Origin: an uncultured Pelagibacteraceae bacterium
GTDB lineage: Bacteria > Pseudomonadota > Alphaproteobacteria > Pelagibacterales > Pelagibacteraceae
NCBI GenBank assembly: GCA_902598485.1
Contig: CACKBU010000004.1
Span: 1 to 64,000, forward strand
Reading direction: 5' to 3'
DNA length: 64,000 nt
This document shows positions 2,236-20,303 of this stretch, one piece after another (position 1 is the stretch's first letter; every line of letters begins with the position of its first letter). The notes beneath the pieces are model-generated. The model ran no database searches. It was not told the DNA's origin and was given only the letters and a program-made list of their open reading frames with translations. A program made the translations under genes and the position numbers.

Positions 2236-3281
2236 ATGTCGATAGCATTGATTACTGGCTCAAATGGTCTTGTTGGATCTGAATCTGTAAAGTTTTTTTC
2301 CAAGAAGGGCTTTGATATATTGGGTATTGATAACAATCTTAGAGAATTTTTTTTGGAAAAGATGGTTCCACTCAGTGGATAAAAAATAAAATAAAAAAAC
2401 AAATTAAGAATTATTCTCATTATAATACTGATATTAGAAGTTATAAAAATTTAGAAAAAATATTTAAAAAATATAAAAAAAATATTTCTATAATTATTCA
2501 TTGTGCAGCGCAACCTTCGCATGATTATGGAAAAAATTTTCCAATATTAGACTTTAATGTAAATGCAACAGGTACTTTAAATCTTCTAGAGTTAACAAAA
2601 CTTTACTGTCCTGACTCTCCTTTCATTTTTATGTCAACTAACAAAGTATATGGTGATAATCCTAATAAACTAAAAATAAATGAAAAAAAAACCCGTTTTG
2701 AGCTAAGTTTATCAAATCACTATTACAAAGGTATTGATGAAAATTTTTCTATAGATAATTGTACTCATAGCTTCTTTGGTGTTTCAAAAACATATGCAGA
2801 TTTGATTGTTCAAGAATATGGAAAAAATGTTGGTCTAAAAACAGTAAGCTTTAGAGGCGGTTGTATTACAGGACCTAACCATAGTGGTGCAAAACTACAT
2901 GGTTTTCTATCATATTTGGTAAAGTTAACTTCCACTAAAAAAAAATATACAATAATTGGATACAAAGGAAAACAAGTAAGAGACAACCTTCATAGCTCAG
3001 ACTTAGTTAATTGCTTTTGGGAATTTTATAAAAAACCAAAAAGAGGTGAAGTTTATAATATTGGTGGAGGTAGATTTTCTAGCTGCTCAATTATTGAAGC
3101 ATTAAATGAAGTTGAAACTCAGTTAAAAATAAATATTAAAAAAAAATTTATAAAACAAAATAGAGTTGGTGATCATATTTGGTACATTACAAACAATAAT
3201 AAATTTAAAAAAGATTATCCAAATTGGAAACAAGTGTATAATACTAAAAAAATCATAACTGAACTTATTGATAATAATTAA
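2236..3281 (+). pseudogene. NAD-dependent epimerase/dehydratase (CDP-tyvelose epimerase-like) interrupted by one frameshift in a T8 run
   Basis: ATG 2236 gives [39 protein letters not shown]; the -1 frame resumes at 2355 with [12 protein letters not shown]...IIHCAAQPSHDYGKNFPILDFNVNATGTLNLLE and joins the listed 2631..3281 ORF. Confidence 0.7.
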
Positions 3282-3283
3282 TT

Positions 3284-4195
3284 ATGCTTTCAAATAAAGA
3301 AATTGTCTGTCCAAATAACTTATTAGATTTAGCTCATAAAAAAAAAGGAGTTAAAGTTGCAGTTGTAAATGCTGGAAAACCTCTACCCATGTTATCTGTT
3401 CAAGACGCAGTTAATGAAAATTTAATTGAGCCAATATTTATAGGACATGAAGTTGAAATTCAAAAATGTGCTGAAGATATCAAATGGGATATTTCTGAAT
3501 ATGAACTTATCCACGTACCTATAGAAAATGATACTGCAAAAATTGCAGCTAAATTAGCAAGTGAAGGCAAAGTACAAATAATAGTTAAAGGCCATATTCA
3601 TACAGATGTTTTGATGAAAGAAATTTTAAAAAGAGAATACAATTTGCTTGGAAAAACAAGGTTAAGTCACATCTGGCATATGACGATTGATAAAGATGAT
3701 AAACCTTTAATTATTACTGATGGAGCATTAAATGTTTTACCAAATGTTAAAACAAAAATGCATATTCTTAAAAATGTTGTTAATTTTTCAAACCGAATAG
3801 GTATAGAAAGGCCAAAAATATCTGTATTATCTGCAACCGAAGAAGTTTTAGAAAGTGTACCAAGTTCCATTGAAGCAGCAGAAATAACAAAATTAGCAAA
3901 AGATGAAAATTTAAGTGCTGATGTTTTTGGTCCTTTAGCTTTTGACAATAGTATTTCAAAAAAATCAGCGATAATAAAAGGAATTAAAAATTTAGTTGCT
4001 GGAGAAGCAGATGTTTTATTGGTGCCAAGTGTAGAGACTGGTAATGCTTTGGTTAAAATGCTTATCTATTTTAGTGGAGCATGTGCCGCAGGAGTTGTGG
4101 TTGGTGGAAAAGTACCAGTTGTTATAACAAGTAGATCTGATGAAGCTCAAGCACGTTTAGCTTCTATTGCAGCTGCAGTGGTTGCATTGGACTAA
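3284..4195 (+). CDS. Phosphate acetyl/butyryltransferase family protein
   Basis: VKVAVVNAGKPLPMLSVQDAV...IIVKGHIHTDVLMKEIL...VLSATEEV...GPLAFDNSIS...VLLVPSVETGNALVKMLIYFSGACAAGVVVGGKVPVVITSRSD, typical of PTA/PTB. Confidence 0.85.
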   Translation: MLSNKEIVCPNNLLDLAHKKKGVKVAVVNAGKPLPMLSVQDAVNENLIEPIFIGHEVEIQKCAEDIKWDISEYELIHVPIENDTAKIAAKLASEGKVQIIVKGHIHTDVLMKEILKREYNLLGKTRLSHIWHMTIDKDDKPLIITDGALNVLPNVKTKMHILKNVVNFSNRIGIERPKISVLSATEEVLESVPSSIEAAEITKLAKDENLSADVFGPLAFDNSISKKSAIIKGIKNLVAGEADVLLVPSVETGNALVKMLIYFSGACAAGVVVGGKVPVVITSRSDEAQARLASIAAAVVALD

Positions 4196-4255: not shown

Positions 4256-5542
4256 ATGGCAATTACATACTTAAAAAAATCACCAAAAACATCATCAACT
4301 GACGACACAAAAACAAGAGAAATAGTAGAAAATATACTAAAAGATATTGAGACTAGTAAAGAAGAAGGTTGTAAAGAGCTTTCGAAAAAGTTTGATAAAT
4401 ATGAAGGTGATGTAATTGTTTCAAAAGAAAAAATTGAAGAAATAAAAAAAAATTTAGATCAAAAAACTAAAGATGATATTCAGTTCTCTCATGAAAGAGT
4501 GAGAAAATTTGCTGAAGCACAACTAAAAAATTATGGTCAGGACTTTGAGGTTGAATTATCTGATGGTTTATTTGCTGGACAAAAACTTATCCCTGTAAAT
4601 ACAGCAGGTTGCTACGTACCAGCAGGGAGATATGCTCATATAGCTTCAGCTGTAATGAGTGTAACAACAGCAAAAGTTGCTGGTGTAAAAAATATTTTAG
4701 TTTGTAGTTCACCAAAACCAGGAGTTGGAGTGCATCCATCAATTGTTTATACAGCTGACTTATGTGGTGCTGACGTGATAATGAATTTAGGTGGTGTACA
4801 AGCTATTGCAGCAATGACAAACGGTTTATTTGGAAATGCCCCTGCGGATATTTTAGTTGGGCCTGGAAACCAATTTGTTGCTGAAGCAAAAAGAATTTTA
4901 TTTGGAAAAGTTGGTATAGATTTATTTGCAGGACCTACAGAAATTGCAGTAATTGCAGACGAGACAGCTGATCCTGAAATGGTTGCATATGATTTAGTTG
5001 GCCAAGCAGAACATGGTTATAATTCTCCAGCCTGGTTGTTTACTAAAAGTAAAAAAGTTGCAGATTATGTAATGGAAAGAGTTCCAGAATTAATTGCAGA
5101 TTTACCAGATCTTCCAAGAGAAAATTCAGGTGCTGCATGGAGAGATTATGGTGAAGTAATTCTTTGTGACACTGATGAAGAGATTGCTAAAGTTAGTGAT
5201 GAATACGCTCCGGAACATTTAGAAGTCCAAACTAAAAATTTACAATGGTACCACGATAGATTAAAAAATTATGGATCTTTATTCATTGGTGAAGAAACAA
5301 CTGTTGCTTATGGAGATAAATGTTCAGGTACAAATCACATTTTGCCAACAAAAGGTGCGGGAAGATACACAGGGGGTTTATTTGTTGGTAAATTTATTAA
5401 AACGTTAAGTTTCCAAAGAATGAGTAAGGCCGCAACAAAAGAAGTTGGTGCTGCTTGTGCAAGAATTTCTAGATACGAGGGAATGGAAGCGCATGCTAGA
5501 ACGGGTGATGTAAGATTAAGAAAATATGGTTTTCAAAACTAA
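4256..5542 (+). CDS. Histidinol dehydrogenase family protein, probably sulfopropanediol 3-dehydrogenase (HpsN)-like
   Basis: PVNTAGCYVPAGRYAHIASAVMSVTTAKVAGV, GPGNQFVAEAKR, ARTGDVRLRKYG C-terminus; SD AGGAGAG. Confidence 0.75.
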   Translation: MAITYLKKSPKTSSTDDTKTREIVENILKDIETSKEEGCKELSKKFDKYEGDVIVSKEKIEEIKKNLDQKTKDDIQFSHERVRKFAEAQLKNYGQDFEVELSDGLFAGQKLIPVNTAGCYVPAGRYAHIASAVMSVTTAKVAGVKNILVCSSPKPGVGVHPSIVYTADLCGADVIMNLGGVQAIAAMTNGLFGNAPADILVGPGNQFVAEAKRILFGKVGIDLFAGPTEIAVIADETADPEMVAYDLVGQAEHGYNSPAWLFTKSKKVADYVMERVPELIADLPDLPRENSGAAWRDYGEVILCDTDEEIAKVSDEYAPEHLEVQTKNLQWYHDRLKNYGSLFIGEETTVAYGDKCSGTNHILPTKGAGRYTGGLFVGKFIKTLSFQRMSKAATKEVGAACARISRYEGMEAHARTGDVRLRKYGFQN

Positions 5543-5559: not shown

Positions 5560-5925
5560 ATGAAAAAATTTGATGAACTTATGAGTGTAGGCAGTGAAAT
5601 TGAAAACATTACTGCTGAAGATGCAAAGAAAAAATTAAATGATCCTAATGTTCAATTTATTGATGTAAGAGATAAAGATAGTTTTTCTAAAGGTACAATA
5701 GGAAATGCTATACACATGGACAGAGGATTGCTTGAATTTTATTTAGCAGAGGGAAGTCCTTTGGAAAATGGTATTTTTAAAAATAATCCAGATAAAGAGT
5801 TTGTGGTTTTTTGTGGTTTAGGCGGTCAAGGCACTCTTGCCACAAAAACAATGAAAGACATGGGTGTTAAAAATGTTAAAAACATTACTGGTGGAATGTC
5901 TGAGTGGGATAAAATAAAAGATTAA
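5560..5925 (+). CDS. Rhodanese-like sulfurtransferase domain protein
   Basis: NVQFIDVRDKDSFSKGTIGNAIHM and VVFCGLGGQGTLATKTMKDMGVKNVKNITGGMSEW. Confidence 0.85.
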   Translation: MKKFDELMSVGSEIENITAEDAKKKLNDPNVQFIDVRDKDSFSKGTIGNAIHMDRGLLEFYLAEGSPLENGIFKNNPDKEFVVFCGLGGQGTLATKTMKDMGVKNVKNITGGMSEWDKIKD

Positions 5926-7184
5926 TCTTTATTTAATTTTAAATCCAAATATAGAGCTGCAGACCAAGAAAAATTATTTGCACCCATTGGTTTGCCATTT
6001 TTGCAACTGTAATATTCGTGAAATCCTTTTTTTTCTACTAATCTAATAGTGCTTTGTTTTATTTTTTTTAAATATTTTTCGTCCTTATTAATTAGACCCT
6101 TGCAAATAAACCAATTACAATTAACCCATACAGGTCCTCTCCAATAACGTTTTTCTTCAAAGCTATTGTGAGTAGGTTTTATTGAAGAAAAGAAATATTT
6201 TTCTTTTACGTTATGTTTTTTTAAGTTTTTGATTAAAACATCATTTATCTTATGATTATTAATATCGGCAAACAGTACTAAGTAATTTGTTATAGATGGG
6301 ACTGATATTTTTTTTTTATTTCTTAAATCAAATGAAAAGAAAGTACCCTTTTTCTCGTCAAAAAATCTTAAAATATTTCTCTCAGTGAGTTTTGTATAAT
6401 TAATTATTTTAGAGCTATCTAGATTAAATTTTTTTAAAAGTATGATTAAATCTTTATTAGCTTTAAGAAATATAGAATTAAATCCAATATCAACGACATT
6501 GAACAATGCAGTATTGAATATTTTTTTTGGATTATACTTCTTTTTTCTTAGATCGTTTTTAATTGTTACATACCTATCATAGTCAATATTTAAAGGTCTA
6601 TGTTCTGGATTAATGACTTTATTATCAGCTCTTTTGTATTGTATATTTTTTTCAATTTTAACTTTACTCATTGGTCCATCCCAAAGCGAAGAGTTATCAT
6701 AACCACTTTCCCAAGGATGAAGTATTGAAACTAAACCAGTTTTCTTAGGATCTCTATTTTTAATAAACCACTCATGAGATTTTTTAATTTTAATTATAAA
6801 TTTTTTAATTTGTTTTTTTTGTTTTTGAGAAATTTTGTTTTTATCTATTATTTGTTTTAAAATACTTGCAAGCACTGGTGGCTGAGTTATCCCAGACGAA
6901 CGAACTTTGTTTCCACAATTCCAAGCAGTATGATTAGGATAATAATTTGTGTTTGTATTATGAAACAATATATGTGGAACCATTCCATCTTTCCATTGCC
7001 CATCTAAAAGTGTCTTTATTTCTTTCAAAGCAAAATTGAAATTAAAATAAGAATATCCTAATGCAATAAATGCTGAATCCCAGTTCCATTGAGCGGGATA
7101 TAATTTATTATTTGTCGGTAAGGTGTATCCTCTTTTTCTATTTCCAAGTAAAATTTTTTGAGCATTTTTTATAAATCTATTCAT
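5922..7184 (-). CDS. GH63/MGH1-type glycoside hydrolase (glucosylglycerate hydrolase-like)
   Basis: YPAQWNWDSAFIALGY, DGMVPHILFH, SGITQPPVLASIL, HPWESGYDNSSLWD, YWRGPVWVNCNWF, NNFSWSAALYLDL. Confidence 0.7.
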   Translation of the reverse strand: MNRFIKNAQKILLGNRKRGYTLPTNNKLYPAQWNWDSAFIALGYSYFNFNFALKEIKTLLDGQWKDGMVPHILFHNTNTNYYPNHTAWNCGNKVRSSGITQPPVLASILKQIIDKNKISQKQKKQIKKFIIKIKKSHEWFIKNRDPKKTGLVSILHPWESGYDNSSLWDGPMSKVKIEKNIQYKRADNKVINPEHRPLNIDYDRYVTIKNDLRKKKYNPKKIFNTALFNVVDIGFNSIFLKANKDLIILLKKFNLDSSKIINYTKLTERNILRFFDEKKGTFFSFDLRNKKKISVPSITNYLVLFADINNHKINDVLIKNLKKHNVKEKYFFSSIKPTHNSFEEKRYWRGPVWVNCNWFICKGLINKDEKYLKKIKQSTIRLVEKKGFHEYYSCKNGKPMGANNFSWSAALYLDLKLNKD

Positions 7185-8377
7185 TATCCTTTAACGCTTC
7201 CTGCTGTCAAACCGCTAACTAGATATTTTTCAAAATAAACAAATATAAATAATACTGGTAATGTAACAACAACTGACCCTGCCATTAAATATTGTCTTGG
7301 CGTTTCTGCATCTCCACTTAAGTATTGAATAGCTCTTGATAATGTAAATGAATTTGGATTATCTAAGAACATTAAAGAAAATAAAAATTCATTCCAAGCA
7401 ATCATAAAAACATACAAAGCGACAGATGAAATAGCTGGAATACTTAGTGGAATTATAATTTTTGAAATAATTCCAAACCAACTTAATTTATCTAATATTG
7501 CAGCTTCCTCTAATTCTTTTGGTATGCTTTTGAAGTATCCTTGTAACATATAAATAGCTACTGGGAGTGTTGTTGCCGTATACACAATTAATAAACCCTC
7601 TATTGAATTACGTAAACCTAATTGACTAAATATTGTATACAACGGAATAACAAGAACGATTGCAGGAAACATATATATTATAAGTATAGATGTAGATAAA
7701 AATGTTTTTCCAAAGAAATTTAATCTTGCGACTGCATAAGCAGCGGGTATCGCAAAAAGCAGAGTGATAATAACAGTGCCGACAGAAACAATTGTACTAA
7801 TCACAATATATTTTCCAAATTTATAAGATTTAAAAATTACAAAATAAGATTTAAATAGATCTTTTATATCTTGTCCAAAATTAATACTAAAATCTAAAGG
7901 ATTCACTAATAATGCTATTTGCGTTTTAAAACTTGTTACTAACATCATGTAAAATGGAAAAAGTATTACAAATGAAAAAAATAATATTCCAAATAAAGTT
8001 AAAAAATCAAATAAAATTACTTGAGTAGAGTGCTCTTCTTTTAAACCTAGAAAAGTATATTTACTAATTTTATTGGTAAAAAAATATAATATTAAAAATA
8101 CACCCACATTATACCAAATTGGTAATTTTTGTATTAAGTAACCATCACAAAAAACGAATATGGAAGAAAAAATTATTGATTTATAAATTGATTTAACTCT
8201 ATCACCTATTCCCAAGTGAGCTAATGATATTAAAAAACCAAATATAAAAATTATTTCTATATTAAAGCTATTAATACTTAAACCTTGCAATGTTGCTAAT
8301 ATCTTCCAAATCGAAATTAAAAAAATTAAAAAAAAAGTAGATATCAACGAAAATAGTATTGTATTTTTAGTTCTCAT
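7184..8377 (-). CDS. Sugar ABC transporter permease, MalG-like
   Basis: EAAILDKLSWFGIISKIIIPLSIPAISSVALYVFMIAWNEFLFSL EAA motif; C-terminal YLVSGLTAGSVKG. Confidence 0.9.
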   Translation of the reverse strand: MRTKNTILFSLISTFFLIFLISIWKILATLQGLSINSFNIEIIFIFGFLISLAHLGIGDRVKSIYKSIIFSSIFVFCDGYLIQKLPIWYNVGVFLILYFFTNKISKYTFLGLKEEHSTQVILFDFLTLFGILFFSFVILFPFYMMLVTSFKTQIALLVNPLDFSINFGQDIKDLFKSYFVIFKSYKFGKYIVISTIVSVGTVIITLLFAIPAAYAVARLNFFGKTFLSTSILIIYMFPAIVLVIPLYTIFSQLGLRNSIEGLLIVYTATTLPVAIYMLQGYFKSIPKELEEAAILDKLSWFGIISKIIIPLSIPAISSVALYVFMIAWNEFLFSLMFLDNPNSFTLSRAIQYLSGDAETPRQYLMAGSVVVTLPVLFIFVYFEKYLVSGLTAGSVKG

Positions 8378-9626
8378 CTACTCTTTTTCCTAAAAGTTTA
8401 AAATAAAAAAACATAAACATTAAAAGCAATACAACGATTACTATTGAAACAGCTGAGCCCATTCCTATGTCTGATATTGCAAAACCTTGTTGATAAACAT
8501 TTATTGGTAAAGTTCTGGTTCCTGATGCACCTCCAGTTAATAAAAAGACATCCTCGAATTTATTAAAATTCCATATAAACCTAATCATGAATAAAATAGA
8601 AATCACTGCAGTAATTTGAGGAAGCGTAATATTAAAAAATTTTTGAAAAGGACTTGCTCCGTCAACATCAGCAGCCTCATATAATTCTTTTGGAATTGCT
8701 TGAAGTCTTGCAAGAATAAATAAAAAGGCTAGAGGGAAATATCTCCAAATTTCAAACATTATAACTGTTGTAAGTGCTAACCTTAATTTAAATTCAAAAC
8801 CCAAAATACTAATTTCAATATATTTTTGTCCAAGGAGATTTATTGGAGTTTCAATAATTTGATAGTTTAATAGTAAACTATTTAGCGTACCGCTATTTGG
8901 ATCTAGTAAAAGTTCCCAAGTATAAGCTAATGCAACAACTGGGGCAACATAAGGGAAAAGTAGAACACTTCTCATGAATGTTCTTCCATAAAATTTTTGA
9001 TTAACCATCTGAGCAGTTAAAATACCGAATACTATTGAGCCAACAGTTCCAAAAAATGTGTAATAAAAAGTTGTAAGTAATAAGTCTACAAATTCATTTT
9101 CGAATAAAACCTTTTTAAAGTTTTTGAGAGTAAAGTTAGTATTAAGTAATATATTATCAGATTTTCCCTTTAATTTTGGCTTAATTGACTTAAGATTTTT
9201 TTTGTCTATTTTTGATCCATCATTTGTTACAAATATTACTTGGAAATTTTCCCTATATTTAGCTGGCCAATTTCCAAATTCACATTTTAGGTTTTGCTTT
9301 TTATAAGAGCATCTTGGATCTAAATTTTCTATTTCAAAAGTTTTTGGAAAATTATCTTGAAATGAAACATCTCTTATCTCTTGAATTAATGAACTGTTTC
9401 TTAATTTATATAATATTTTTATTTTAGAGGGCTCATCAGAAATAGACTTTACAATTTTTTTTGCTCTAGGTTCTGGAATTCTAATATCTTTTAACTCAAC
9501 CTCTTTAAAGCTAATCCAAACATTTGCAAAAATTGGAAATAAAATTATTGAAAAAACTAATAGGACTGCAGGTAAAGTTAGGATGTATGCAGTTTTTTTT
9601 TCTGTATTTGCTAGAGTGTCATTCAT
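8367..9626 (-). CDS. Sugar ABC transporter permease, MalF-like with large periplasmic insertion
   Basis: EAADVDGASPFQKFFNITLPQITAVISILFMIRFIWNFNKFEDVFLLTGG. Confidence 0.9.
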   Translation of the reverse strand: MNDTLANTEKKTAYILTLPAVLLVFSIILFPIFANVWISFKEVELKDIRIPEPRAKKIVKSISDEPSKIKILYKLRNSSLIQEIRDVSFQDNFPKTFEIENLDPRCSYKKQNLKCEFGNWPAKYRENFQVIFVTNDGSKIDKKNLKSIKPKLKGKSDNILLNTNFTLKNFKKVLFENEFVDLLLTTFYYTFFGTVGSIVFGILTAQMVNQKFYGRTFMRSVLLFPYVAPVVALAYTWELLLDPNSGTLNSLLLNYQIIETPINLLGQKYIEISILGFEFKLRLALTTVIMFEIWRYFPLAFLFILARLQAIPKELYEAADVDGASPFQKFFNITLPQITAVISILFMIRFIWNFNKFEDVFLLTGGASGTRTLPINVYQQGFAISDIGMGSAVSIVIVVLLLMFMFFYFKLLGKRVDEN

Positions 9627-9627
9627 A

Positions 9628-9661
9628 AAAAAAGCGGATAATTTATATTATCCGCTTTTTT
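9628..9661 (-). terminator. Perfect 15-bp hairpin with U-tract between SBP gene and MalF-like permease; abuts permease ATG
   Basis: AAAAAAGCGGATAAT-TTAT-ATTATCCGCTTTTTT; on the minus strand the T-run runs directly into ATG at 9626. Confidence 0.85.
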
Positions 9662-9673
9662 ATAAAATTAAAA

Positions 9674-11005
9674 TTATTTGAATTTAGCTAATGATTTGTT
9701 AATCATATCAACAGCTTCATCGACATCAATTTGATCATCAATATAAAGTCTAGTAATTCTATTAATAAACTGAGAATTTATGACTTTTGATGCTCTTGAT
9801 AGTTCACCTTCTTTAACACCCCATCTATTTGCAGTATCCAAACCAGCTACAATATTATTAATTACATCTGGGTCGTATAGATCTGACAAAGGAGCTTTTC
9901 TATCAACTCCAACAGGTAGTTTACTCCAAGCTTTTGTGAAAGCTTCAGGGTCACTTGAATTTCCTCTTCTTACTGGAAATTTACCTTCTGGAGCTATAGA
10001 TAATGTGCTTGTATAACCTTCATCCATTGAGTACATGATAAATTGTTTAGCTTCATCTGTATCAGCGTCAGCAGTTATACCAAAATATCTAACATCTGCC
10101 CATGCAGCACCTTTTTTATTACTAGGTCCACTAAAATTAGTTATGAAACCAGTTTTAGAAGCTAATTCAGGTGATGTTGGATCACTGTTAATTGTTGGTG
10201 GAGCTGAGTCTCTTAAACCTGCAAGCTCATCCATAATGAACGGAGACCAAATAATCATTGGAGTTTTACCTGCAAAGTAAAGTGCTCTAGATTGTTTCCA
10301 GTACAATTCTCCTGGAGGACTAGCTTTAGCAATTACTTTATAAAACTCTAATGCTTCTTTTAATTTCTTACCTTGTTTCTTTATACCGCCTTTTTTAACA
10401 ATATTAACTCCATTTGCTAAAAGAACGTGCTCTAAAACTTGGCTCATGAAATTTTCATCAGTCTTGGTAGCAGCTACAAACCCAAACATACCGTTTTGTT
10501 TTGATAGCTTCTCAACAGCAGCTACGATATTTGCATAGCTTGTTGGTGGTGCTAAATCTGCATTTTCAAAAAGGTCTTTTCTATAAACAACCATTTGTGT
10601 CCATCCATCAACTGGAACGGCTGCAATTTTTGAACCTTTTTTTGCCATGTTAAGTGCACCTGGCGCAAATGTATCTTTACCAAGTTCTTTAACAACATCG
10701 TTATTGGCATCAACATCTAAAATTCCTGCTTCAGCCCATGGTAATACATATTGTAGAGTATGGTAGATCACATCCGGCAAATCACCTGCTGCAGCAGCAG
10801 CTGTAGCTCTAGTTCCCAAATCTTTTTCTTCTACCGGGATGACCTCTACTTTAATTCCTGTTTTAGCCTCAAAAGCTTTTGCCATTTCCTCTTGCTTAGC
10901 CATTCGGGCAGGCTGAACTTCTGTAGTCCAAAACTTTATATCTGCGTAAACTATACTTGAAATAAAAAAAGATATTACACAGAACAATCTTATAATATTC
11001 TTCAT
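9674..11005 (-). CDS. Sugar ABC transporter solute-binding protein
   Basis: Signal peptide MKNIIRLFCVISFFISSIVYA; IKFWTTEVQPARMAKQEEMAKAFEAKTGIKVEVIPV; SD AGGAGGGG. Confidence 0.9.
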   Translation of the reverse strand: MKNIIRLFCVISFFISSIVYADIKFWTTEVQPARMAKQEEMAKAFEAKTGIKVEVIPVEEKDLGTRATAAAAAGDLPDVIYHTLQYVLPWAEAGILDVDANNDVVKELGKDTFAPGALNMAKKGSKIAAVPVDGWTQMVVYRKDLFENADLAPPTSYANIVAAVEKLSKQNGMFGFVAATKTDENFMSQVLEHVLLANGVNIVKKGGIKKQGKKLKEALEFYKVIAKASPPGELYWKQSRALYFAGKTPMIIWSPFIMDELAGLRDSAPPTINSDPTSPELASKTGFITNFSGPSNKKGAAWADVRYFGITADADTDEAKQFIMYSMDEGYTSTLSIAPEGKFPVRRGNSSDPEAFTKAWSKLPVGVDRKAPLSDLYDPDVINNIVAGLDTANRWGVKEGELSRASKVINSQFINRITRLYIDDQIDVDEAVDMINKSLAKFK

Positions 11006-11148: not shown

Positions 11149-12204
11149 CTAAGATTTTAGTCTTTTTCCATTTTCATCAAAAATAAAAATATTATTCAGA
11201 TCAAATCCAATTTTATTTCCGATTTCTATGTTGCTTGGGATTTTGGCACTTAATTGATGTTCCTCTTTTTTCATGTAAGCAATTTTTTCGTTGCCTAAGT
11301 TTTCAATTAATTCAATCTCAGGATTAAAAGAATATTGATTTTCTTGATTTGCTTTTAAGTGTTCAGGTCTTATACCTACAAAGTGTTTTGATTTATTTAG
11401 TTTTAAGTTATCAAACATAATATCATTACCTAATAACTTAATTTTATTGTCAGAAATTACATTTTTTTCATCAATTTCCAAAATATTCATTTTGGGTGTA
11501 CCAATGAATTGAGCCACAAAAATATTTGCAGGGTCATTATAAATTTCTTCAGGAGTCCCGACCTGTTCAATGTTACCTTGATTTAAAATAACTATTCTAT
11601 CTGCTAAAGTCATAGCTTCAACCTGATCATGAGTAACATATATCATGTTTGTTTTTATTTGATTGTGCAATTTTGAAATTTCCACTCTCATTTCAGCCCT
11701 TAAAGCAGCATCCAAATTTGATAACGGTTCATCGAATAAGAATATTTTTGGATTTCTTGTGATAGCTCTTCCTATTGCTACCCTTTGTCTTTGACCGCCT
11801 GATAATTGTTTTGGTTTCCTTTCAAGAAGTTCTTCAATTTTTAGAATTTTTGCTGCTTGCATAACTTTTGTATTAATTTCTTCTTTTGGTCTTTTTTCTA
11901 TTTTTAAACCGAAGGACATATTTTCATAAACATTCATATGAGGGTATAGTGCGTAAGATTGAAAAACCATTGCAGTTTGACGCTTTGATGGATGAAGTTC
12001 ATTAATTTTTTGATCGTTAATAAAAATTTCACCTTCATCAATTTTTTCCAATCCAGCAATCATTCTTAATAATGTTGATTTTCCACATCCTGATGGTCCA
12101 ACAAGAACAAGAAACTCATCCTCTTTACCTAAAAGGTTAAAATCAGTAATAATTTTATTTGAACCAAAGGATTTATGTACACCGGTAAATTTTATATTTG
12201 CCAT
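11149..12204 (-). CDS. ABC transporter ATP-binding protein, MalK/UgpC family
   Basis: Walker A GPSGCGKSTLL, LSGGQRQRVAIGRAI, FLFDEPLSNLD, C-terminal VGIRPEHL regulatory domain. Confidence 0.95.
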   Translation of the reverse strand: MANIKFTGVHKSFGSNKIITDFNLLGKEDEFLVLVGPSGCGKSTLLRMIAGLEKIDEGEIFINDQKINELHPSKRQTAMVFQSYALYPHMNVYENMSFGLKIEKRPKEEINTKVMQAAKILKIEELLERKPKQLSGGQRQRVAIGRAITRNPKIFLFDEPLSNLDAALRAEMRVEISKLHNQIKTNMIYVTHDQVEAMTLADRIVILNQGNIEQVGTPEEIYNDPANIFVAQFIGTPKMNILEIDEKNVISDNKIKLLGNDIMFDNLKLNKSKHFVGIRPEHLKANQENQYSFNPEIELIENLGNEKIAYMKKEEHQLSAKIPSNIEIGNKIGFDLNNIFIFDENGKRLKS

Positions 12205-12211
12205 TTTAATT

Positions 12212-13288
12212 TTAGGTTTTTAAAATATCTACTCCAATTTGTTTTAATATGTGGACTATATCAATTGGAACCCAATTTTCACGAATTTTTCCTTCATCAT
12301 GATGATAAAAATCCATAACTCTCATAGTTACTTTTTGATTTTCAGATTTATAACCTAGCCAATCATTAGATCCATATATAGCTTGAATACTATTCCATCC
12401 AGCAGTTAAAGAAAATTTTCCATCCCCTAATTCACAATAATGACCAAGTTCCCAATAATTTCTTTCTTTAAAAGTTTTTCTAAACGGTAATTGATGATTA
12501 TCTACAAATCCCTCTAAAGTTCTTGCAGTACCAATGCCACTTGGTCCATACCAAATCATTTTTTCATGCCAATAATCACTTTGTGGATGATTGATTAATC
12601 TTTCTTTAAGATCTTTGTCAGAAGAAACTTCTAATTCAGGTTTTATATTTAAGCTTCTCTGCATAGTAAGTGATTGTTCCAAATTATTTTTCGAAATTTG
12701 CATATCCTTTTCAAAAAAATTAGCACCATCAGTATTAATTGGGTTCAGCCAATTACCTTCAGAGCCTCTTGAATTATTTAATGGATTTGTTCCAGTTTGA
12801 ATTAATAGATCTATTAAATCAATTAAAATATAACTCTCAATAATCTTGTTATCCTTTAGTTCGTGAATTTCACAACATTTTAGATTTATCATTTTATTGT
12901 TTGGTTTGATACCTAACCATGTTTTTTTAAATACACCTGATAAAGTAGAAATTGTTCCGACCTGAATTTTGTCCCTAAAAGCCCCACTAATTACTAACTG
13001 TTCTCTTCTTTCAAGATCAGGAAATGAGTTAAACAATGGTTTCCAGAATTTTTCCTTAAAATCATGAATTCCAATAAATTCATTTAATGGATAAAAACAA
13101 TTAATACTAACATCTTTAGAGAACATATTTTGAAGGTTTTGATCGAGCCTAGAGATGCCCTCTTTTACTATTGTACCTAAATATTTTCTAACAACCTGTT
13201 TGTAATTATAGTTTTCCTCGGGAGTAATAACTATTTTTTCTACGTTCTCCTGACCCTTAAGACCTGTATCAAATTGTTCTATTTGCAT
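12212..13288 (-). CDS. Tandem SnoaL-like (NTF2-like) domain protein
   Basis: ORF track begins at GTG 13318; ATG at 13288 (MQIEQFDTGLKGQ) preferred. Two SnoaL-like repeats with ELKDNKIIESYILIDLIDLL and DEGKIRENWVPIDIVHIL. Confidence 0.7.
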   Translation of the reverse strand: MQIEQFDTGLKGQENVEKIVITPEENYNYKQVVRKYLGTIVKEGISRLDQNLQNMFSKDVSINCFYPLNEFIGIHDFKEKFWKPLFNSFPDLERREQLVISGAFRDKIQVGTISTLSGVFKKTWLGIKPNNKMINLKCCEIHELKDNKIIESYILIDLIDLLIQTGTNPLNNSRGSEGNWLNPINTDGANFFEKDMQISKNNLEQSLTMQRSLNIKPELEVSSDKDLKERLINHPQSDYWHEKMIWYGPSGIGTARTLEGFVDNHQLPFRKTFKERNYWELGHYCELGDGKFSLTAGWNSIQAIYGSNDWLGYKSENQKVTMRVMDFYHHDEGKIRENWVPIDIVHILKQIGVDILKT

Positions 13289-13338
13289 ATATTTTTTGTT
13301 AGATAAATTTAGTATCACAAAATATAGTTTAAAAAAAT

Positions 13339-14283
13339 ATGAATAATCGATTAGCTAAATTTGAAGATCTTATACCAAGTACTTTGCCATTTGTTGAGGG
13401 GAAACTTGAAGGACACAAAGAAAGAAAAAATTATTCTATTGTAGGTCCTGGAGTAGCAGAAGACAGTAAACAATTTGTTAAAATAGCAATGCCCCACAGC
13501 TTTAATCTAGGTGCAGTTTCAGCATTGCCAAAAAATGGCTCAGGCCTTCACAGTCATACAACCGCTGAAGTTTTTATTATCTATTCTGGTAAGTGGAGGT
13601 TCTATTGGGGTGCTGAAGGTAAAGATGAAACACTTTTAAGTGCAGGAGATATAATTTCTATGCCAACAAATATGTTTAGAGGATTTGAGAATGCAGGAAA
13701 TAAAGAAGGATTAATTTTTGTTGTATTAGGTGGAGACGATCCTGGAATAATAACTTGGGTTCCAAGTGTTTTAGAAAAAGCAAAAAAAACAGGTATGGCA
13801 CTTTTAAATGATAATTCATTAATTGATTTATCTTTAAATGAAATTCCAAAAGGGAAAAGTATTCTTGAACCAATTTCTGAAGAAGAAATAAAAAAATTTG
13901 ATAATTACAAACTAGATCAGCTAGAAAAATTCATATGTAAAAATAATGAAAATTCTAAACAAGTTAATAAAATAAACGACAATTTTGATTTAATTCAAAT
14001 TCTTGGAAATAAATTTGAAAATAAAGAATACGCTCCAATAATAAATCAAGATACTGGATTTAACCTTTCAATTTTAAAATGTAACAAAGGACAAATAACT
14101 AATTTAAAGTTTGAAAAACCTACAATATTGTTTTCAAGAACTGGTAAGTGGGAAATTATGATTGATGATTTTCAATGTATTTTAAATCCCAAAGATACAA
14201 TTTCTATCCCAATCAATTCAAATGTTAATTTAAAGATAAATGAACAAGAGGATTGTTACTTAAATTGTGTAACTCAAATCTAA
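13339..14283 (+). CDS. Two-domain cupin protein
   Basis: GSGLHSHTTAEVFIIYSGKWRFYWGAEGKDETLLSAGDIISMPTNMFRGFENAG; second degenerate cupin near C-terminus. Confidence 0.8.
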   Translation: MNNRLAKFEDLIPSTLPFVEGKLEGHKERKNYSIVGPGVAEDSKQFVKIAMPHSFNLGAVSALPKNGSGLHSHTTAEVFIIYSGKWRFYWGAEGKDETLLSAGDIISMPTNMFRGFENAGNKEGLIFVVLGGDDPGIITWVPSVLEKAKKTGMALLNDNSLIDLSLNEIPKGKSILEPISEEEIKKFDNYKLDQLEKFICKNNENSKQVNKINDNFDLIQILGNKFENKEYAPIINQDTGFNLSILKCNKGQITNLKFEKPTILFSRTGKWEIMIDDFQCILNPKDTISIPINSNVNLKINEQEDCYLNCVTQI

Positions 14284-15245
14284 TGAAAGGATTTGATCAA
14301 AAATATAAAAACTTTCCTGATTATATTCTTAAAATAACTAAACAAATTTGGGAAAACAAAGATGTTGAGTCTATTGCTCAATTTTACACTGATACTATTC
14401 CTGTTAGATCTCCATTTGGAGTTACTTATGGAAACAAACCTGTAATTGATGCAACTTATGCAACCTTAAAAGAATTTCCTAACAGACAGTTGCTTGGTGA
14501 AGATGTGATCTGGAATGGAAATGATGATGTGGGTTATCATTCATCTCATAGAATTTTAAGTAAAGGAACACATCTTGGTGATGGCTTATATGGTAAACCA
14601 ACCGGTAAAAATATTTATTATAGAGTAATTGCTGATTGTGCTTGCAAAAATAATCAAGTCTATGATGAATGGATTGTCCGTGATCAAGGTGCAATGGTAA
14701 GACAAATAGGATTTACGCCAAAAGAATTTGCCCAAATGATTATTGATAAAGAAGGAGGCACCGACAAAGCACAACAATTATTCAATTCAAGCTCTGAGAT
14801 GAAATCAGATTATAAACAAAGCGTTGTGCCTGATGAGTCTGCTGGGGGTAAATACTCAAAAATATTGAAAAATATCTTTAAAAATAAGTATGACTTTTCT
14901 GATTATGCAAGGGCTGCAACTATCTATTGGCCTGGAAATAAAATTGGACATGGAAGAGAGGATATTGAAAAATTTTGGAATAATTTAAAAAATACTTTGA
15001 GTGATATAAAGTTTTCAATAGAGCATGTTGGTTATTTGGAAGAACCAGATAAAAATCCCAAAGCGTCAATAAGATGGTTTTTAGAAGGTAATCATTCTGA
15101 AGACACTTTAGATTTTGGACAAAAATCAGATAAAAATATTTTTATAATGGGGATAAACCATGCAGAAATAGTTGATGGAAATGTTATAAGAGAGTGGGTT
15201 TTGTTTGATGAAGTTGCAATTTGGAAACAAATTTTAATTAAATAA
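14283..15245 (+). CDS. Tandem SnoaL-like domain protein
   Basis: ORF track starts at 14253, but ATG 14283 (MKGFDQKYKNF) forms a TAATG junction with the cupin; SnoaL-like repeats ending DGNVIREWVLFDEVAIWKQI. Confidence 0.7.
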   Translation: MKGFDQKYKNFPDYILKITKQIWENKDVESIAQFYTDTIPVRSPFGVTYGNKPVIDATYATLKEFPNRQLLGEDVIWNGNDDVGYHSSHRILSKGTHLGDGLYGKPTGKNIYYRVIADCACKNNQVYDEWIVRDQGAMVRQIGFTPKEFAQMIIDKEGGTDKAQQLFNSSSEMKSDYKQSVVPDESAGGKYSKILKNIFKNKYDFSDYARAATIYWPGNKIGHGREDIEKFWNNLKNTLSDIKFSIEHVGYLEEPDKNPKASIRWFLEGNHSEDTLDFGQKSDKNIFIMGINHAEIVDGNVIREWVLFDEVAIWKQILIK

Positions 15246-15247
15246 TT

Positions 15248-16375
15248 ATGACTAAAATTAAAACAACACATGTAGGAAGTTTGCCTAGATCAAATGAATT
15301 ATCTGAACTCTTGTTTAAGAAAGATCAAAAAGAACAAATAGATTTTAATCAATTTGATAAGGTTGTTCAAAAAGATGTTAACAAGATTGTTAAAAAACAA
15401 ATCGAGGTTGGAATTGATTGTATTAGCGATGGTGAGATGTCTAAGATTAGTTATGCTACTTATGTTAAGGATAGAATTGATGGATTTTCTGGAGAGAGTG
15501 AGAGAAAAGCGCCTAAAGATTTAGATGACTTTCCTTCTTTTAAAGAAAGAATTGCAAGAACAGGTGGTACTCCAACTTATACAAGACCATGTTGTACTAG
15601 TGAATTAAAAATTAAAGATAAAACTTCCCTAACAAAAGATATTGATAATTTTAAGCAAGCGTTAGAAAAAAATAATCATAAAGATGGTTTCATGAACGCC
15701 GCCTCTCCTGGAGTTATTTCAGCTTTTTTACCAAATAAATTTTATAAAAATGATGATGAGTATTTAGAAAACTTATCTAACCTTATGAAAGATGAGTATG
15801 AAGAAATTACCTCAAATGGATTAAAACTTCAGTTAGATTGTCCAGATTTAGCTCTTGCTAGACACATGACTTTTAAAGATTTATCAGAGTCAGAATTTTT
15901 AATTAGAGCTGAAAAACAAATAGAATGTCTAAATAATGCTATTAAAAATATCGACAGCTCTTGTATAAGACTACATATCTGTTGGGGAAATTATGAAGGA
16001 CCTCATCTACATGATATTCCGTTAGAAAAGATAATGCCAATTGCATTGAAAGCTAATGTACAGACTTATCTAATTGAGTCATCTAATCCAAGACATTCTC
16101 ATGAGTGGCAAATTTTTCAAAATTTAAAAATTCCAAAAGACAAAATAATTGCCCCAGGTGTAATAGATTCTACAACAAATTTTGTAGAACATCCCGAAGT
16201 TGTAAAGAATAGAATTTTAACCTTTTCTAAGGTCATTGATGCTGAACAATTATTAGCTGGGACTGACTGTGGATTTAGCACCTTTGCTGGCTTTGGCAAT
16301 GTAGATGAAAATATTGTTTATAAAAAGCTTGAGTCGTTAGTGAGTGGAGCGGAACTTGCGTCAAAAGTGATTTAA
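15248..16375 (+). CDS. MetE C-terminal-like zinc-dependent methyltransferase family protein
   Basis: TTHVGSLPRS N-terminus; RLHICWGN (HxC), LIESSNPRHSHEW, LAGTDCGFSTF match Zn-ligand motifs of cobalamin-independent methionine synthase. Confidence 0.8.
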   Translation: MTKIKTTHVGSLPRSNELSELLFKKDQKEQIDFNQFDKVVQKDVNKIVKKQIEVGIDCISDGEMSKISYATYVKDRIDGFSGESERKAPKDLDDFPSFKERIARTGGTPTYTRPCCTSELKIKDKTSLTKDIDNFKQALEKNNHKDGFMNAASPGVISAFLPNKFYKNDDEYLENLSNLMKDEYEEITSNGLKLQLDCPDLALARHMTFKDLSESEFLIRAEKQIECLNNAIKNIDSSCIRLHICWGNYEGPHLHDIPLEKIMPIALKANVQTYLIESSNPRHSHEWQIFQNLKIPKDKIIAPGVIDSTTNFVEHPEVVKNRILTFSKVIDAEQLLAGTDCGFSTFAGFGNVDENIVYKKLESLVSGAELASKVI

Positions 16376-16460: not shown

Positions 16461-17681
16461 ATGAGAAAAATACTAGTTACTTTATTGTTTCTACTTTTTG
16501 GAACTTCTGCATTTGCAGATTGTAACATAAAAAGTGGTTCGATAAATATTTTGGCTAATGATTTTCCTGCATTAAGAACTTTCGTTGAAACTTCTAAACA
16601 ATGTAAAGGAAGTGCTGATTTTAAAGTGACTCACTCATCTGAGCATAATAAAATCGCTGTGCCAGCTTTGACTGCAAATCCATCTGAGTTTTCAGCAAGA
16701 ATTGCAGCTAATAGTTCAATTGTTCCTTTGATGAATCAAGATTTAATTAGACCATTAGATGATCTTGTTAAAAAATATGGAAAAGGAATTCAAGATTCTC
16801 AATTAATTACAATCGATGGAAAAGTAATGGCTGTAGCGTTTATGGCTAATACTCAACATTTGTATTACAGAGAAGATGTTTTGAAAGACCTTGGTATAGC
16901 TATTCCAAAAACTTATGAGGAAGTAGTTGCAGCATCTGAAAAAATTAGAGCTTCAGGTAAAATGCAATATCCTTACGCAGCTGCATATAAAGCTGGTTGG
17001 AATTTAGCAGAAGAATTTGTGAACATGTTTATTGGTCACGGTGGTGAGTTCTTTAAATCTGGAAGCGCAGAGCCTAATATTAATAATGCTAAAGGCGTTG
17101 CTACTTTAAATATGTTAAAAAAATTGTCTGAATTGAGTAACCCTGATTACTTAACTCATGATAGTGAAGCAATTAAAGTGGAATGGGAATCTGGTAATGT
17201 TGCATTGATGACATTATGGGCATCTAGATCAGGAACGCTTTTAGATGATGAAGGCGATCCTAACATTACTAAGGCAACTAAATTAACTGGACCTGCTACT
17301 GTAGGTGGAGGAAATATTCCAGCTGCTACATTATGGTGGGATGGCTTCACACTTGCAAAAAATAGATCTGATGCAGATGCTGAAGCAACATTTAGAGCTT
17401 TAGCTCACGCAGCATCAAATAAAAAGATGGTTGCTGACGCTGCTGATCAAGCTGTTTGGTTAGTAGAGGGGTTTGTACCAGGACCAAAATCTATTGGTGT
17501 TATCGAAGCTGTAAAAATGGGAGCAAAACCATATCCAATGTTACCACAAATGGGTTTAATGCATGGTGCATTAGGAAGTGAGATTGTTGAGTTTTTACAA
17601 GGTAAAGAGTCAGCTGAACAAGCATTAAAAGATGTTGAAGCTGCTTACATTAGTAAAGCTAAAGAACAAGGCTTTCTATAA
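16461..17681 (+). CDS. Sugar-type ABC transporter solute-binding protein
   Basis: Signal peptide MRKILVTLLFLLFGTSAFA; MALTLWASRSG-like motif MTLWASRSGTL; upstream of two permeases. Confidence 0.85.
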   Translation: MRKILVTLLFLLFGTSAFADCNIKSGSINILANDFPALRTFVETSKQCKGSADFKVTHSSEHNKIAVPALTANPSEFSARIAANSSIVPLMNQDLIRPLDDLVKKYGKGIQDSQLITIDGKVMAVAFMANTQHLYYREDVLKDLGIAIPKTYEEVVAASEKIRASGKMQYPYAAAYKAGWNLAEEFVNMFIGHGGEFFKSGSAEPNINNAKGVATLNMLKKLSELSNPDYLTHDSEAIKVEWESGNVALMTLWASRSGTLLDDEGDPNITKATKLTGPATVGGGNIPAATLWWDGFTLAKNRSDADAEATFRALAHAASNKKMVADAADQAVWLVEGFVPGPKSIGVIEAVKMGAKPYPMLPQMGLMHGALGSEIVEFLQGKESAEQALKDVEAAYISKAKEQGFL

Positions 17682-17694
17682 AATCTAAAACTTA

Positions 17695-17719
17695 TAAGTG
17701 GGGATTTACTCCCCACTTA
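17695..17719 (+). other. Perfect 10-bp hairpin between SBP and permease genes
   Basis: TAAGTGGGGA-TTTAC-TCCCCACTTA, 13 nt before ATG 17732. Confidence 0.8.
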
Positions 17720-17731
17720 ATCAATATTTAA

Positions 17732-18760
17732 ATGCCTAATAAAACTTTTTTTTGGTTTTTCTTACCAACAGGCTTAGCAATGATCCTGTTTATTGGGTTA
17801 CCAATTATATCTACCGGCATTCAATCCTTTTATGCACAACATGATCAAGTAGTAAAAGAAGTTAAAAAATGTGATCCTTTTGGATGTACTGTTTCAATTG
17901 TAGTTGATAACGAAGAAACCTCAAAAATTAGGGAAGCAAAGCCTCTTGGAAAATTTAATGGTTTTGGCACTTATACTGATCGAAATCATTTAGCAGTTGA
18001 TGAAATAAAAAAATTTTGGAATGAAACTGAAAGTTTTGGTGCCTTTATAGACCAAGTAACTAATCTTCCCTTTTATAAAGCTCTAATATTTACGTTAACT
18101 TATTGTTTGTTTGTTACACCAAATGTACTCCTCTTAGGATTTATTATTGCATTAAGCTTAAATGCAGTTGCTAGAAAAATTAGGGGACCTTTAATCTTTG
18201 GTACAATTTTACCGATGATTGTTACACCGTTGGTTGGATCATTAGTATTATTTTGGATGATAGATTCTCAGGGTATAATTGGAGCAAATATTCAAAATTT
18301 AATGAATGATCCTTATTTATCACTTAAATCATCAAAAACATTAACATGGATAACAATAATTATTTACGGAATATGGCATCACTCCCCTTTTGCCTTTGTG
18401 GTTTTTTATGCGGCACTTCAAACAGTTCCTCAAGAACCAATTGAAGCAGCAATTATAGATGGTGCCTCAAGATTTCAAAGAATTAAACATATAGTTTTAC
18501 CGCATATTTATCCTGTAGTTACATTTGTAGCTTTGATCTCTTTAATGGACAACTTTAGAGTATTTGAACCCATTATAGGGTTTAGTGCTGAGGGAAGTGC
18601 ACAATCTTTATCTTGGTTAATCTATGACAATTTAGTTAATGAGGAAGTGATATTGTTTGGTTCTGCTGCAGCTACTTCAATGATGACTATTATTGGTATA
18701 GCTATCCTGCTAGCACCAGTGTTAATTAGAACTTGGAAAGAATTTAAAACGGCGAGATAA
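17732..18760 (+). CDS. Sugar ABC transporter permease, MalF-like
   Basis: EAAIIDGASRFQRIKHIVLPHIYPVVTFVALISLMDNFRVFEPI. Confidence 0.9.
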   Translation: MPNKTFFWFFLPTGLAMILFIGLPIISTGIQSFYAQHDQVVKEVKKCDPFGCTVSIVVDNEETSKIREAKPLGKFNGFGTYTDRNHLAVDEIKKFWNETESFGAFIDQVTNLPFYKALIFTLTYCLFVTPNVLLLGFIIALSLNAVARKIRGPLIFGTILPMIVTPLVGSLVLFWMIDSQGIIGANIQNLMNDPYLSLKSSKTLTWITIIIYGIWHHSPFAFVVFYAALQTVPQEPIEAAIIDGASRFQRIKHIVLPHIYPVVTFVALISLMDNFRVFEPIIGFSAEGSAQSLSWLIYDNLVNEEVILFGSAAATSMMTIIGIAILLAPVLIRTWKEFKTAR

Positions 18761-18762
18761 TT

Positions 18763-19644
18763 ATGGATTATGGACTAGATACAAAATCAACTCGTTTAAA
18801 AACTTTTAACACTATTTTTATAATAACCTGGTTGTTGATTGCTTGTTTTCCTTTTATTTGGACTTTTTGGGGATCATTTAAAGTAAGAGCTGATTTCTTT
18901 TCAAGATCTGATTGGTGGTATGCAATATCAGCATTTAATACCTTAATTGAAACAGGCGGACAATTTACAACCAATGCTTATACACAAGCTTGGACTGAAG
19001 GTGAATTTTGGAAAGCATCAAAAAATACAATTATAGTTACAGTATTTGTTGTAAGTATTTCTTTGTTTTTAGGAACTTTAGGAGCATATGCTCTTTCAAG
19101 ATCAACTGAGAAATATGCTTTTTGGATTTTAATGGCAGCTTTAATTTTTAGAGCTATGCCACACATAACTTTAGTATCAGGATATCTTTTTCCTTTCTTT
19201 GAATTACAAATTTGGGGAATTCTTCCAACTACTATTGTTGTTTTGGTTGCTATAAATCAACCTTTTACTTTGTGGCTGCTTTATTCATTTTTCAAAACTG
19301 TTCCTAAAGAACTTGATGAAAGTGCTTTAATAGATGGTTGTTCTTATTTTCAAGCTTTTAGGCATATTATTATGCCTGTGATGTGGCCTGGAGTAATTAC
19401 AGCAGGTTTATTTAGTTTAATGTTAGCCTATAATGATTTTACCGTAACAGCATTACTTCTCAATCAAGAAAATCATACCATGGTTCCAAAAATACAAAGT
19501 TATTTAGGTACTAATCAACATGAAGGAAATTTAATGTGGGCAGTTTCTGCAGTTGTATCTGCTACTGCGCCTTTATTTATGCTTGTTATGTTTTTCCAAA
19601 GACAGGTTATTAGTGGTTTAACTGCTGGAGCTGTGAAAGGTTGA
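18763..19644 (+). CDS. Sugar ABC transporter permease, MalG-like
   Basis: ESALIDGCSYFQAFRHIIMPVMWPGVITAGLFSLMLAYNDFTVT; VISGLTAGAVKG C-terminus. Confidence 0.9.
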   Translation: MDYGLDTKSTRLKTFNTIFIITWLLIACFPFIWTFWGSFKVRADFFSRSDWWYAISAFNTLIETGGQFTTNAYTQAWTEGEFWKASKNTIIVTVFVVSISLFLGTLGAYALSRSTEKYAFWILMAALIFRAMPHITLVSGYLFPFFELQIWGILPTTIVVLVAINQPFTLWLLYSFFKTVPKELDESALIDGCSYFQAFRHIIMPVMWPGVITAGLFSLMLAYNDFTVTALLLNQENHTMVPKIQSYLGTNQHEGNLMWAVSAVVSATAPLFMLVMFFQRQVISGLTAGAVKG

Positions 19645-20303
19645 AATATTATAAAGCATTACTTTTTGGTTCTATTGGATCTATTGTTGAAACTTCAGAA
19701 ATTCAGAGAAAGTCATTCAATAAAGCATTCGAACAATATGGACTCGATTGGAATTGGACCAAACGTGAGTATCAAAATTTATTGAGCAAATCAGGTGGCA
19801 AAGATAGAATATCAAGATATGCCAAAAAGAAAAAAATTGAAGTTAATTCAGTATATTTAAGAAATTTAAAGACTAAATTCTTTAATAATTATCTTAACAA
19901 ATATCATCTTAAATTAAGGCCAGGTGTTAAAAATTTAATTTCTTTTTGCAAAAAAGAAAATATAAAAATTGCATTTGTTTCATCTACTTCTACAAATAAT
20001 ATAAATGCAATCTTATATTGTTTAAGAAATTCAATTAATAAAAGAGATTTTAACTTTATAGGGAATGCAAAATTAGTAAAAAAATACAAACCCAACCCAG
20101 ATATATACTTATTAGCACTTAAAAAACTTAAGCTTAAAGCTAATGATTGTGTAGCAATTGAAGATTCTCAAGAAAGTTTAAATTCAGCTAGGCGAGCTAA
20201 AATAAAATGTATAATTTTTCCTGGAAAATTTCATTCTTCAAAAAAATTTATTGGAGCTTATAAAAAAGTTTATCAGCTTAATAAAAATATTATTTTGAGA
20301 TAA
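19641..20303 (+). CDS. HAD-superfamily protein (beta-phosphoglucomutase/CbbY-like) lacking catalytic motif I aspartates
   Basis: KPNPDIYLLALKKLKL and CVAIEDSQESLNSARRAKIKCIIFPG are HAD motifs, but motif I reads LLFGSIGSIVETS; TTG start overlapping previous stop. Confidence 0.75.
   Translation: MKYYKALLFGSIGSIVETSEIQRKSFNKAFEQYGLDWNWTKREYQNLLSKSGGKDRISRYAKKKKIEVNSVYLRNLKTKFFNNYLNKYHLKLRPGVKNLISFCKKENIKIAFVSSTSTNNINAILYCLRNSINKRDFNFIGNAKLVKKYKPNPDIYLLALKKLKLKANDCVAIEDSQESLNSARRAKIKCIIFPGKFHSSKKFIGAYKKVYQLNKNIILR

Follow-up and report, generated by a model that had tools for sequence, protein, structure and literature searches.

The window analyzed here, a 64,000-nucleotide stretch of contig CACKBU010000004.1, comes from a Pelagibacter (SAR11) genome of 1.12 Mb, a single-cell or draft assembly. 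Its positions 12,212 to 16,375 hold four genes, encoding two proteins with tandem SnoaL domains (snoA and snoB), a cupin, and a MetE-like protein. We found that these four genes, an ATP-binding cassette (ABC) importer of the MalK/SBP2/MalFG2 type, in which SBP2 is the solute-binding protein (SBP), and a HAD gene are inherited together in SAR11, where they occupy a single chromosomal site as one inserted block. The features of the locus are as follows.

11149..12204, minus strand: malK/UgpC-type ATPase, probable energizer of the importer (NF008653, 462 bits, above cut-off)
12212..13318, minus strand: snoA, double-SnoaL (NTF2-fold) protein (PF07366, PF12680; start probably the ATG at 13288)
13289..13338, no strand: short intergenic gap separating the divergent snoA and cupin genes (sequence)
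13339..14283, plus strand: cupin protein, probable bicupin (PF07883, E=2.5e-9)
14283..15245, plus strand: snoB, second double-SnoaL protein (PF07366, E=1.9e-19)
15248..16375, plus strand: MetE-like zinc methyltransferase, catalytic half only (PF01717, E=5e-16)
16461..17681, plus strand: sbp2, SBP of the module ABC importer (PF01547, E=2e-16)
17695..17719, no strand: perfect 10-bp hairpin in the sbp2-malF2 gap (sequence scan)
17732..18760, plus strand: malF2 permease (UgpA/MalF-type matches; kept with the module)
18763..19644, plus strand: malG2 permease (GlcU/MalG-type matches; kept with the module)
19641..20303, plus strand: HAD hydrolase of the beta-phosphoglucomutase/hexitol-phosphatase type (PF13419, E=1e-23; TIGR02009, E=9e-27)

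Layout and inheritance of the module

The open reading frames (ORFs) of snoA, the cupin, snoB, and the MetE-like gene are all real and intact. Their ratios of nonsynonymous to synonymous substitution rates (dN/dS) within SAR11 were 0.05-0.21, indicating purifying selection, while sbp2 gave values of 0.009-0.017. The cupin stop codon overlaps the snoB start codon in a TAATG at 14281-14285, and the MetE-like frame starts 2 bases after the end of snoB. The divergent gap between snoA and the cupin gene measures 20 bp; with the ATG at 13288 as the start of snoA, it widens to about 50 bp. This ATG, which corresponds to a Met11 invariant in the SAR11 alignment, is probably the true start. A first-pass annotation, made from the sequence alone, had proposed a four-gene module with translational coupling at the TAATG, and both proposals agree with the overlap, the intact frames, the purifying selection, and the conserved co-occurrence described below. 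It had also placed the two SnoaL genes face to face across a short divergent promoter; the short divergent gap exists, but snoA diverges from the cupin gene, which lies in between. A promoter and terminator scan of the region gave counts no higher than in shuffled sequence, and an Rfam search of the region returned no match.

Among 297 Pelagibacterales genomes, 53 carried the MetE-like gene, 52 carried SBP2, and 51 carried both (Fisher p 8e-54, a value that ignores the relatedness of the genomes). The three exceptions were short fragments or matches truncated by the end of a contig. The block snoA|cup-snoB-metE-sbp2-malFG2 was kept in all long-enough contigs among 80 named SAR11 loci. In module-free strains, hpsN and lysE are separated by 6-8 bp (L183, L184) or about 0.5 kb (L182); thus, the module is a cassette at a fixed site, carried by about one-fifth of the Pelagibacter genomes sampled. 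The module therefore withstood the check that its genes might not co-occur elsewhere: co-occurrence was strict in SAR11, and the gene set was also found in other Alphaproteobacteria.

The plus-strand importer (sbp2-malF2-malG2) and the HAD gene, together spanning 16461-20303, belong to the module. SBP2 is 50% identical to the SBP of the Ruegeria cluster, and a HAD homologue with 51% identity lies inside a related cluster (L147). The malK gene adjoins snoA in many SAR11 loci, some of them without the minus-strand transporter, and is absent from others; its product is the probable energizer of the module importer. The hairpin at 17695-17719 is of a kind typical of signals that keep binding-protein mRNA above permease mRNA, and may be a transcript-processing or attenuation signal.

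On the other side of the core genes, the minus strand at 5922-11005 encodes a glucosylglycerate hydrolase (GgH)-like protein with its own SBP, MalF, and MalG, found in some SAR11 loci only. The hydrolase (5922-7184) scored 299.7 bits against NF047898, whose cut-off is 550, and is related to that family without being certified as a member. GgH, sbp1, and malFG1 were missing from many module-complete SAR11 loci (many of L054-L110), and sbp1-malFG1 is part of this separable system. Thus, the module does lie between two transporters, as the first-pass annotation had noted, but they are not of equal status: only sbp2-malFG2 belongs to it. Direct adjacency, and possibly a shared MalK in the window genome, would suit a role for the module as an accessory of the glucosylglycerate-type transporter and hydrolase. 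Because that system is missing from many loci that bear a complete module, we rejected the link; this explanation is largely refuted and has hardly any probability left. The same comparison bears on the suggestion that the module is a catabolic set for a modified glycoside. The genomic evidence agrees with a catabolic set linked to transport; the glycoside is unproven, because the only nearby glycosidase, that at 5922-7184, travels with the other transporter, and none belongs to the module.

Other neighbors lie farther upstream. The hisD gene at 4256-5542 (plus strand) encodes HpsN, sulfopropanediol 3-dehydrogenase (PDB 8v35, E=2e-160). We considered it as a part of the SAR11 module and rejected it, as it is HpsN and is also found in module-free strains. 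It stands beside a phosphotransacetylase-like gene (3284-4195, plus strand) and a rhodanese gene (5560-5925, plus strand), and this neighborhood likely represents a C3-sulfonate (dihydroxypropanesulfonate) step that is present in module-free SAR11 too. An epimerase/dehydratase ORF at 2631-3281 (plus strand) lacks the N-terminal part of its fold, with the dTDP-glucose dehydratase model matched from position 148. It lies beside a glycosyltransferase gene and an intact epimerase gene, and could be a degraded copy bordering a variable surface-sugar region.

Related clusters in other taxa

Related clusters of roseobacters, rhizobia, and Paracoccus keep the transporter, the SnoaL proteins, and the cupin, and most also keep MetE. 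Beyond these, they encode a LacI regulator, a short-chain dehydrogenase/reductase (SDR) and an HpsN/HisD-like dehydrogenase, as well as an alpha/beta hydrolase and a pyruvate-aldolase-type enzyme, either RraA or HpaI/CitE. In Ruegeria, Octadecabacter, and Marinovum, the cluster is plasmid-borne and comprises malK, an SBP gene, malF, malG, LacI, an HpsN-like 'histidinol dehydrogenase,' and several double-SnoaL genes, together with snoB, the cupin, the MetE-like gene, an alpha/beta hydrolase, and an RraA-family protein; the SDR was found in the Ruegeria and Octadecabacter clusters. The Paracoccus cluster has the same set without MetE. Versions in Ensifer, Deinococcus, Priestia, Roseibium, and Novosphingobium include an HpaI/CitE aldolase/citrate-lyase or RraA and sometimes an amidase; Vibrio, Deinococcus, Priestia, and one haloarchaeon have the cluster in partial form. 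In 20 regions around alphaproteobacterial snoB homologues, a cupin was present in all 20, a HisD-like gene in 19, and a MetE-like gene in 17. Three loci (L147-L149) show the SAR11 layout, with cup-snoB-metE divergent from snoA, followed by hisD; in two of them an SDR comes after hisD, and L147 also has the HAD gene. In the haloarchaeon Halobellus limi, consecutive genes encode four snoA-type proteins, a single-domain SnoaL, and a MetE-like protein; genes for an ABC importer, an aldolase/citrate-lyase, and a DesA-like O-demethylase lie nearby.

The best-known SnoaL proteins are polyketide cyclases, and the module could be read as a small biosynthetic cluster that uses its SnoaL proteins in this way, with the transporter serving uptake or recycling. 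We consider this very unlikely: the homologous clusters contain importer SBPs, LacI, dehydrogenases, and aldolase-type enzymes, and neither a polyketide synthase nor another assembly enzyme was found in any homologous cluster inspected.

In Marinovum (L142, 20890-28972), the cassette adjoins genes annotated for the breakdown of dimethylsulfoniopropionate (DMSP), among them that for the demethylase DmdA; this proximity may be a coincidence or may reflect a link to methyl metabolism.

Enzymes of the module and its possible function

In agreement with the first-pass annotation, each SnoaL protein carries two SnoaL-type domains (Pfam PF07366 plus PF12680; in snoA, E=4.8e-18 and E=5e-8, respectively). 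The PF07366 scores of 65.6 and 70.2 bits, against a curated cut-off of 28.4, place both proteins in the SnoaL family. Homologues of snoA were found in Ruegeria, Vibrio, and Halobellus, and snoB is 38-45% identical to the module snoB of Ruegeria, Vibrio, and Ensifer. In structural comparisons, the N-terminal domain of the snoA model matched the SnoaL-like polyketide cyclases 2gey, 3kkg, and 6hnn, and limonene-epoxide hydrolase was among the NTF2-fold relatives. In sequence alignments, both domains of each window SnoaL protein, and most homologues, retain the Asp of an ID/FD motif; the cross-taxon alignment left out two snoB-type rows of L147.

The N-terminal domain of the cupin keeps motif 1 (H71-x-H73-x3-E77), while the motif-2 His is replaced by Arg114, and Arg was found at this position in all aligned module cupins, those of other taxa included. 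The protein thus has motif 1 only of the pair that marks metal-binding cupins of, for example, the DddK type (HxHx3E plus the motif-2 His). The first-pass description of a twin cupin is borne out by Pfam for the first domain, which is all that the match covers, while the second barrel comes from a structural model of medium confidence (mean predicted local distance difference test score, pLDDT, 61) that Foldseek aligned end to end with bicupins. The window cupin is thus a probable bicupin; because the matches are generic bicupins, we read no function from the model.

The MetE-like protein, of 375 amino acids, has PF01717 (E=5e-16) as its sole Pfam match and contains the HxC and DCG motifs that the first-pass annotation had reported. 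Curated NCBIfam models matched it far below their cut-offs. The reference residues in Escherichia coli MetE are the zinc ligands 641, 643, 665, and 726 (H, C, E, and C) and the homocysteine residues 433, 484, and 599 (S, E, and D). S433, E484, D599, H641, C643, and C726 were identical in 14 of 14 homologues. The counterpart of E665 falls within a 9-residue length difference, where all 14 have a Glu, and aligns in the phmmer match to 1ypx. The protein therefore has the zinc and homocysteine residues of a core methionine synthase. It is not a full-length MetE, as it has PF01717 only and lacks the N-terminal PF08267; this folate domain had no match in the window genome or the other SAR11 genomes tested, while control genomes were positive.

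The MetE-like protein is 53% identical to the Ruegeria module protein. In the phylogenetic tree, module MetE proteins, those of SAR11 included, form one main clade (94/85) apart from most stand-alone homologues, and the MetE of L147-L149 is sister to that of SAR11. The wider family was found in 70 of 385 alphaproteobacterial genomes, often without SnoaL neighbors. Homologues lie beside a LigM-like O-demethylase and methylene-tetrahydrofolate (THF) reductase in two sphingomonad-type genomes and two sphingomonad plasmids, folD is also near distant homologues in sphingomonads, and the Halobellus homologue is the one near the DesA-like O-demethylase. These neighborhoods point to methyl-group metabolism as the possible business of the family. 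A role as demethylase or methyl transferase appears plausible, given the retained zinc and homocysteine residues and the LigM/DesA-like O-demethylases next to distant homologues. On Dietzia (L175, 8989-13338) and Rhodococcus (L176, 8989-13351) plasmids, a homologue shares an operon with a 2-oxoglutarate-Fe oxygenase, a YaaH transporter, a PhyH-type dioxygenase, and an HD-domain protein, an arrangement that resembles PhnY/PhnZ phosphonate oxidation.

The same residues would also suit a catabolic cassette in which the MetE-like protein is a core methionine synthase that was recruited to supply methionine, uses an ordinary cellular donor such as a methylated corrinoid or folate carrier, and does not act on the imported substrate. 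Core methionine synthases free of the folate domain are known (PMC7857596), and stand-alone homologues of the MetE-like protein exist, one of them, in a single genome, beside a gene like that for the homocysteine-forming enzyme MetY. However, the MetE-like gene of SAR11 always occurs with the cassette and belongs to a module-specific clade. Other homocysteine methyltransferases (PF02574) were already present in all SAR11 genomes tested, with or without the module; thus, methionine synthesis does not depend on the MetE-like protein alone. We regard this alternative as unlikely, although it is the strongest of those considered.

Epoxide-opening chemistry exists among MetE-fold enzymes, epoxyalkane:coenzyme M transferase being related to MetE, and the zinc thiol of the module protein could similarly open an epoxide or other electrophile made by the SnoaL proteins. 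The limonene-epoxide hydrolase among the structural matches would fit, but the conserved residues that bind the carboxylate and amine of homocysteine suggest an amino-acid thiol and methionine-type chemistry, and the cassette contains no epoxide-forming monooxygenase. We consider this alternative improbable.

We tentatively favor, without leaning on it heavily, a mobile catabolic cassette whose substrate is a polyol- or sugar-acid-like compound and whose MetE-like protein passes a methyl group to homocysteine. Its parts differ in strength: that the module is a catabolic cassette is very likely, whereas the methyl transfer to homocysteine is somewhat doubtful, and the substrate class is a similarly cautious suggestion. 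SBP2 would capture the small polyol- or sugar-acid-like compound, and its skeleton would be isomerized, dehydrated, or opened by the cupin and the SnoaL proteins, whose NTF2 barrels retain an Asp. In the fuller clusters, the HpsN/HisD-like enzyme and the SDR may oxidize alcohols, the alpha/beta hydrolase may open a lactone, and RraA or HpaI/CitE may release pyruvate. If the substrate bears a methyl group, the MetE-like protein would activate homocysteine on zinc and take the methyl, directly or via a carrier, to form methionine. SAR11 would keep the uptake, skeleton, and methyl steps, with the fragments finished by enzymes encoded elsewhere.

Several observations weigh against this catabolic, methyl-transferring cassette. 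MetE is missing from several related clusters (Paracoccus, Roseibium, Ensifer, and Vibrio), and methyl transfer is therefore not essential to the pathway; because stand-alone MetE homologues are common, the MetE-like protein may be an accessory. No close RraA and no module-type HisD was found in SAR11, and thus the SAR11 version may differ in its action. The snoA model is confident in its N-terminal half only, the C-terminal half being mostly below pLDDT 50. We also dropped the naming of the SBP2 ligand from solved SBPs, as the closest one, 5iai (E=1e-10), is too distant.

A bolder form is rather unlikely: an undescribed pathway in which an abundant methylated metabolite is taken apart by paired tandem-SnoaL enzymes together with a cupin, while a zinc enzyme of the MetE type passes the methyl group of this metabolite straight to homocysteine. 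If it is true, one dissolved compound supplies both carbon and methionine to the ocean's most abundant bacteria, and the pathway is shared by SAR11, roseobacters, and rhizobia, with a reduced form in haloarchaea. About one-fifth of the genomes carry the cassette, and purifying selection on it is strong; its substrate is therefore probably a genuine component of the dissolved organic matter of the ocean. As the SBP is conserved and the larger clusters occur in culturable roseobacters, the substrate should be findable by ordinary experiments. A tandem-SnoaL pathway would widen the known roles of the SnoaL fold, and SAR11 methyl-group recycling would gain an entry if a MetE-type enzyme draws on an imported compound.

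Comparison with known systems

The closest relatives of the MetE-like protein by architecture are the core (folate-independent) methionine synthases MesA-MesD, which are without the folate domain (PMC7857596). They, and especially MesD/MesX, share with it a single MetE catalytic half, the absence of the folate domain, and the zinc and homocysteine residues. The sequence limit used for MesD is at least 390 bits to ACIAD3523 (PMC7857596); in phmmer, the window protein reached 30 bits (E=2.7e-6) against the solved MesD 3rpd, which differs from the reference of that paper, and we rejected its identity with MesD. MesX (PF08908) had no match in 8 genomes, and none in the control genomes either. In contrast to MesD/MesX, the MetE-like gene is linked to transporter, SnoaL, and cupin genes. 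A Phaeobacter 'mes-like' gene, which was not needed for DMSP-driven shortening of the lag phase (PMC12366255), may be related; we set it beside the MetE-like gene by description only.

The THF-dependent O-demethylation clusters (LigM/DesA) of sphingomonads contain MetE-like homologues of about 45% identity beside LigM-like, methylene-THF reductase, and folD genes, whereas no LigM/DesA-like gene was seen within the SAR11 or roseobacter cassettes. The roseobacter clusters encode a HisD-like enzyme of a separate subfamily, with about 47% identity to the sulfopropanediol dehydrogenase HpsN of SAR11; HpsN itself occurs in SAR11 both with and without the module.

With SnoaL-like cyclases and other NTF2-fold enzymes (AclR, SnoaL2, IdmH, and limonene-epoxide hydrolase), the module SnoaL proteins share the fold and the Pfam family, and they keep an Asp in the region of the C-terminal helix that may correspond to the catalytic Asp of the cyclases. 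Unlike these enzymes, they have two fused domains per protein and several paralogues per cluster, with no polyketide genes.

A search of the open-access literature, with most subscription journals outside its reach, found no published description of a SnoaL-cupin-MetE cluster, and we know of no characterized pathway with this combination of families. The importer has the architecture of the MalEFGK/UgpABCE carbohydrate importers with LacI operons, and the related clusters share LacI, SDR, and aldolase-type partners with them. In contrast to those sugar systems, the core enzymes of the module are the tandem SnoaL proteins, the cupin, and the MetE-like protein, which to our knowledge occur in no known sugar pathway. 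Thus, the protein families are known, while their combination looks like an undescribed nutrient pathway.

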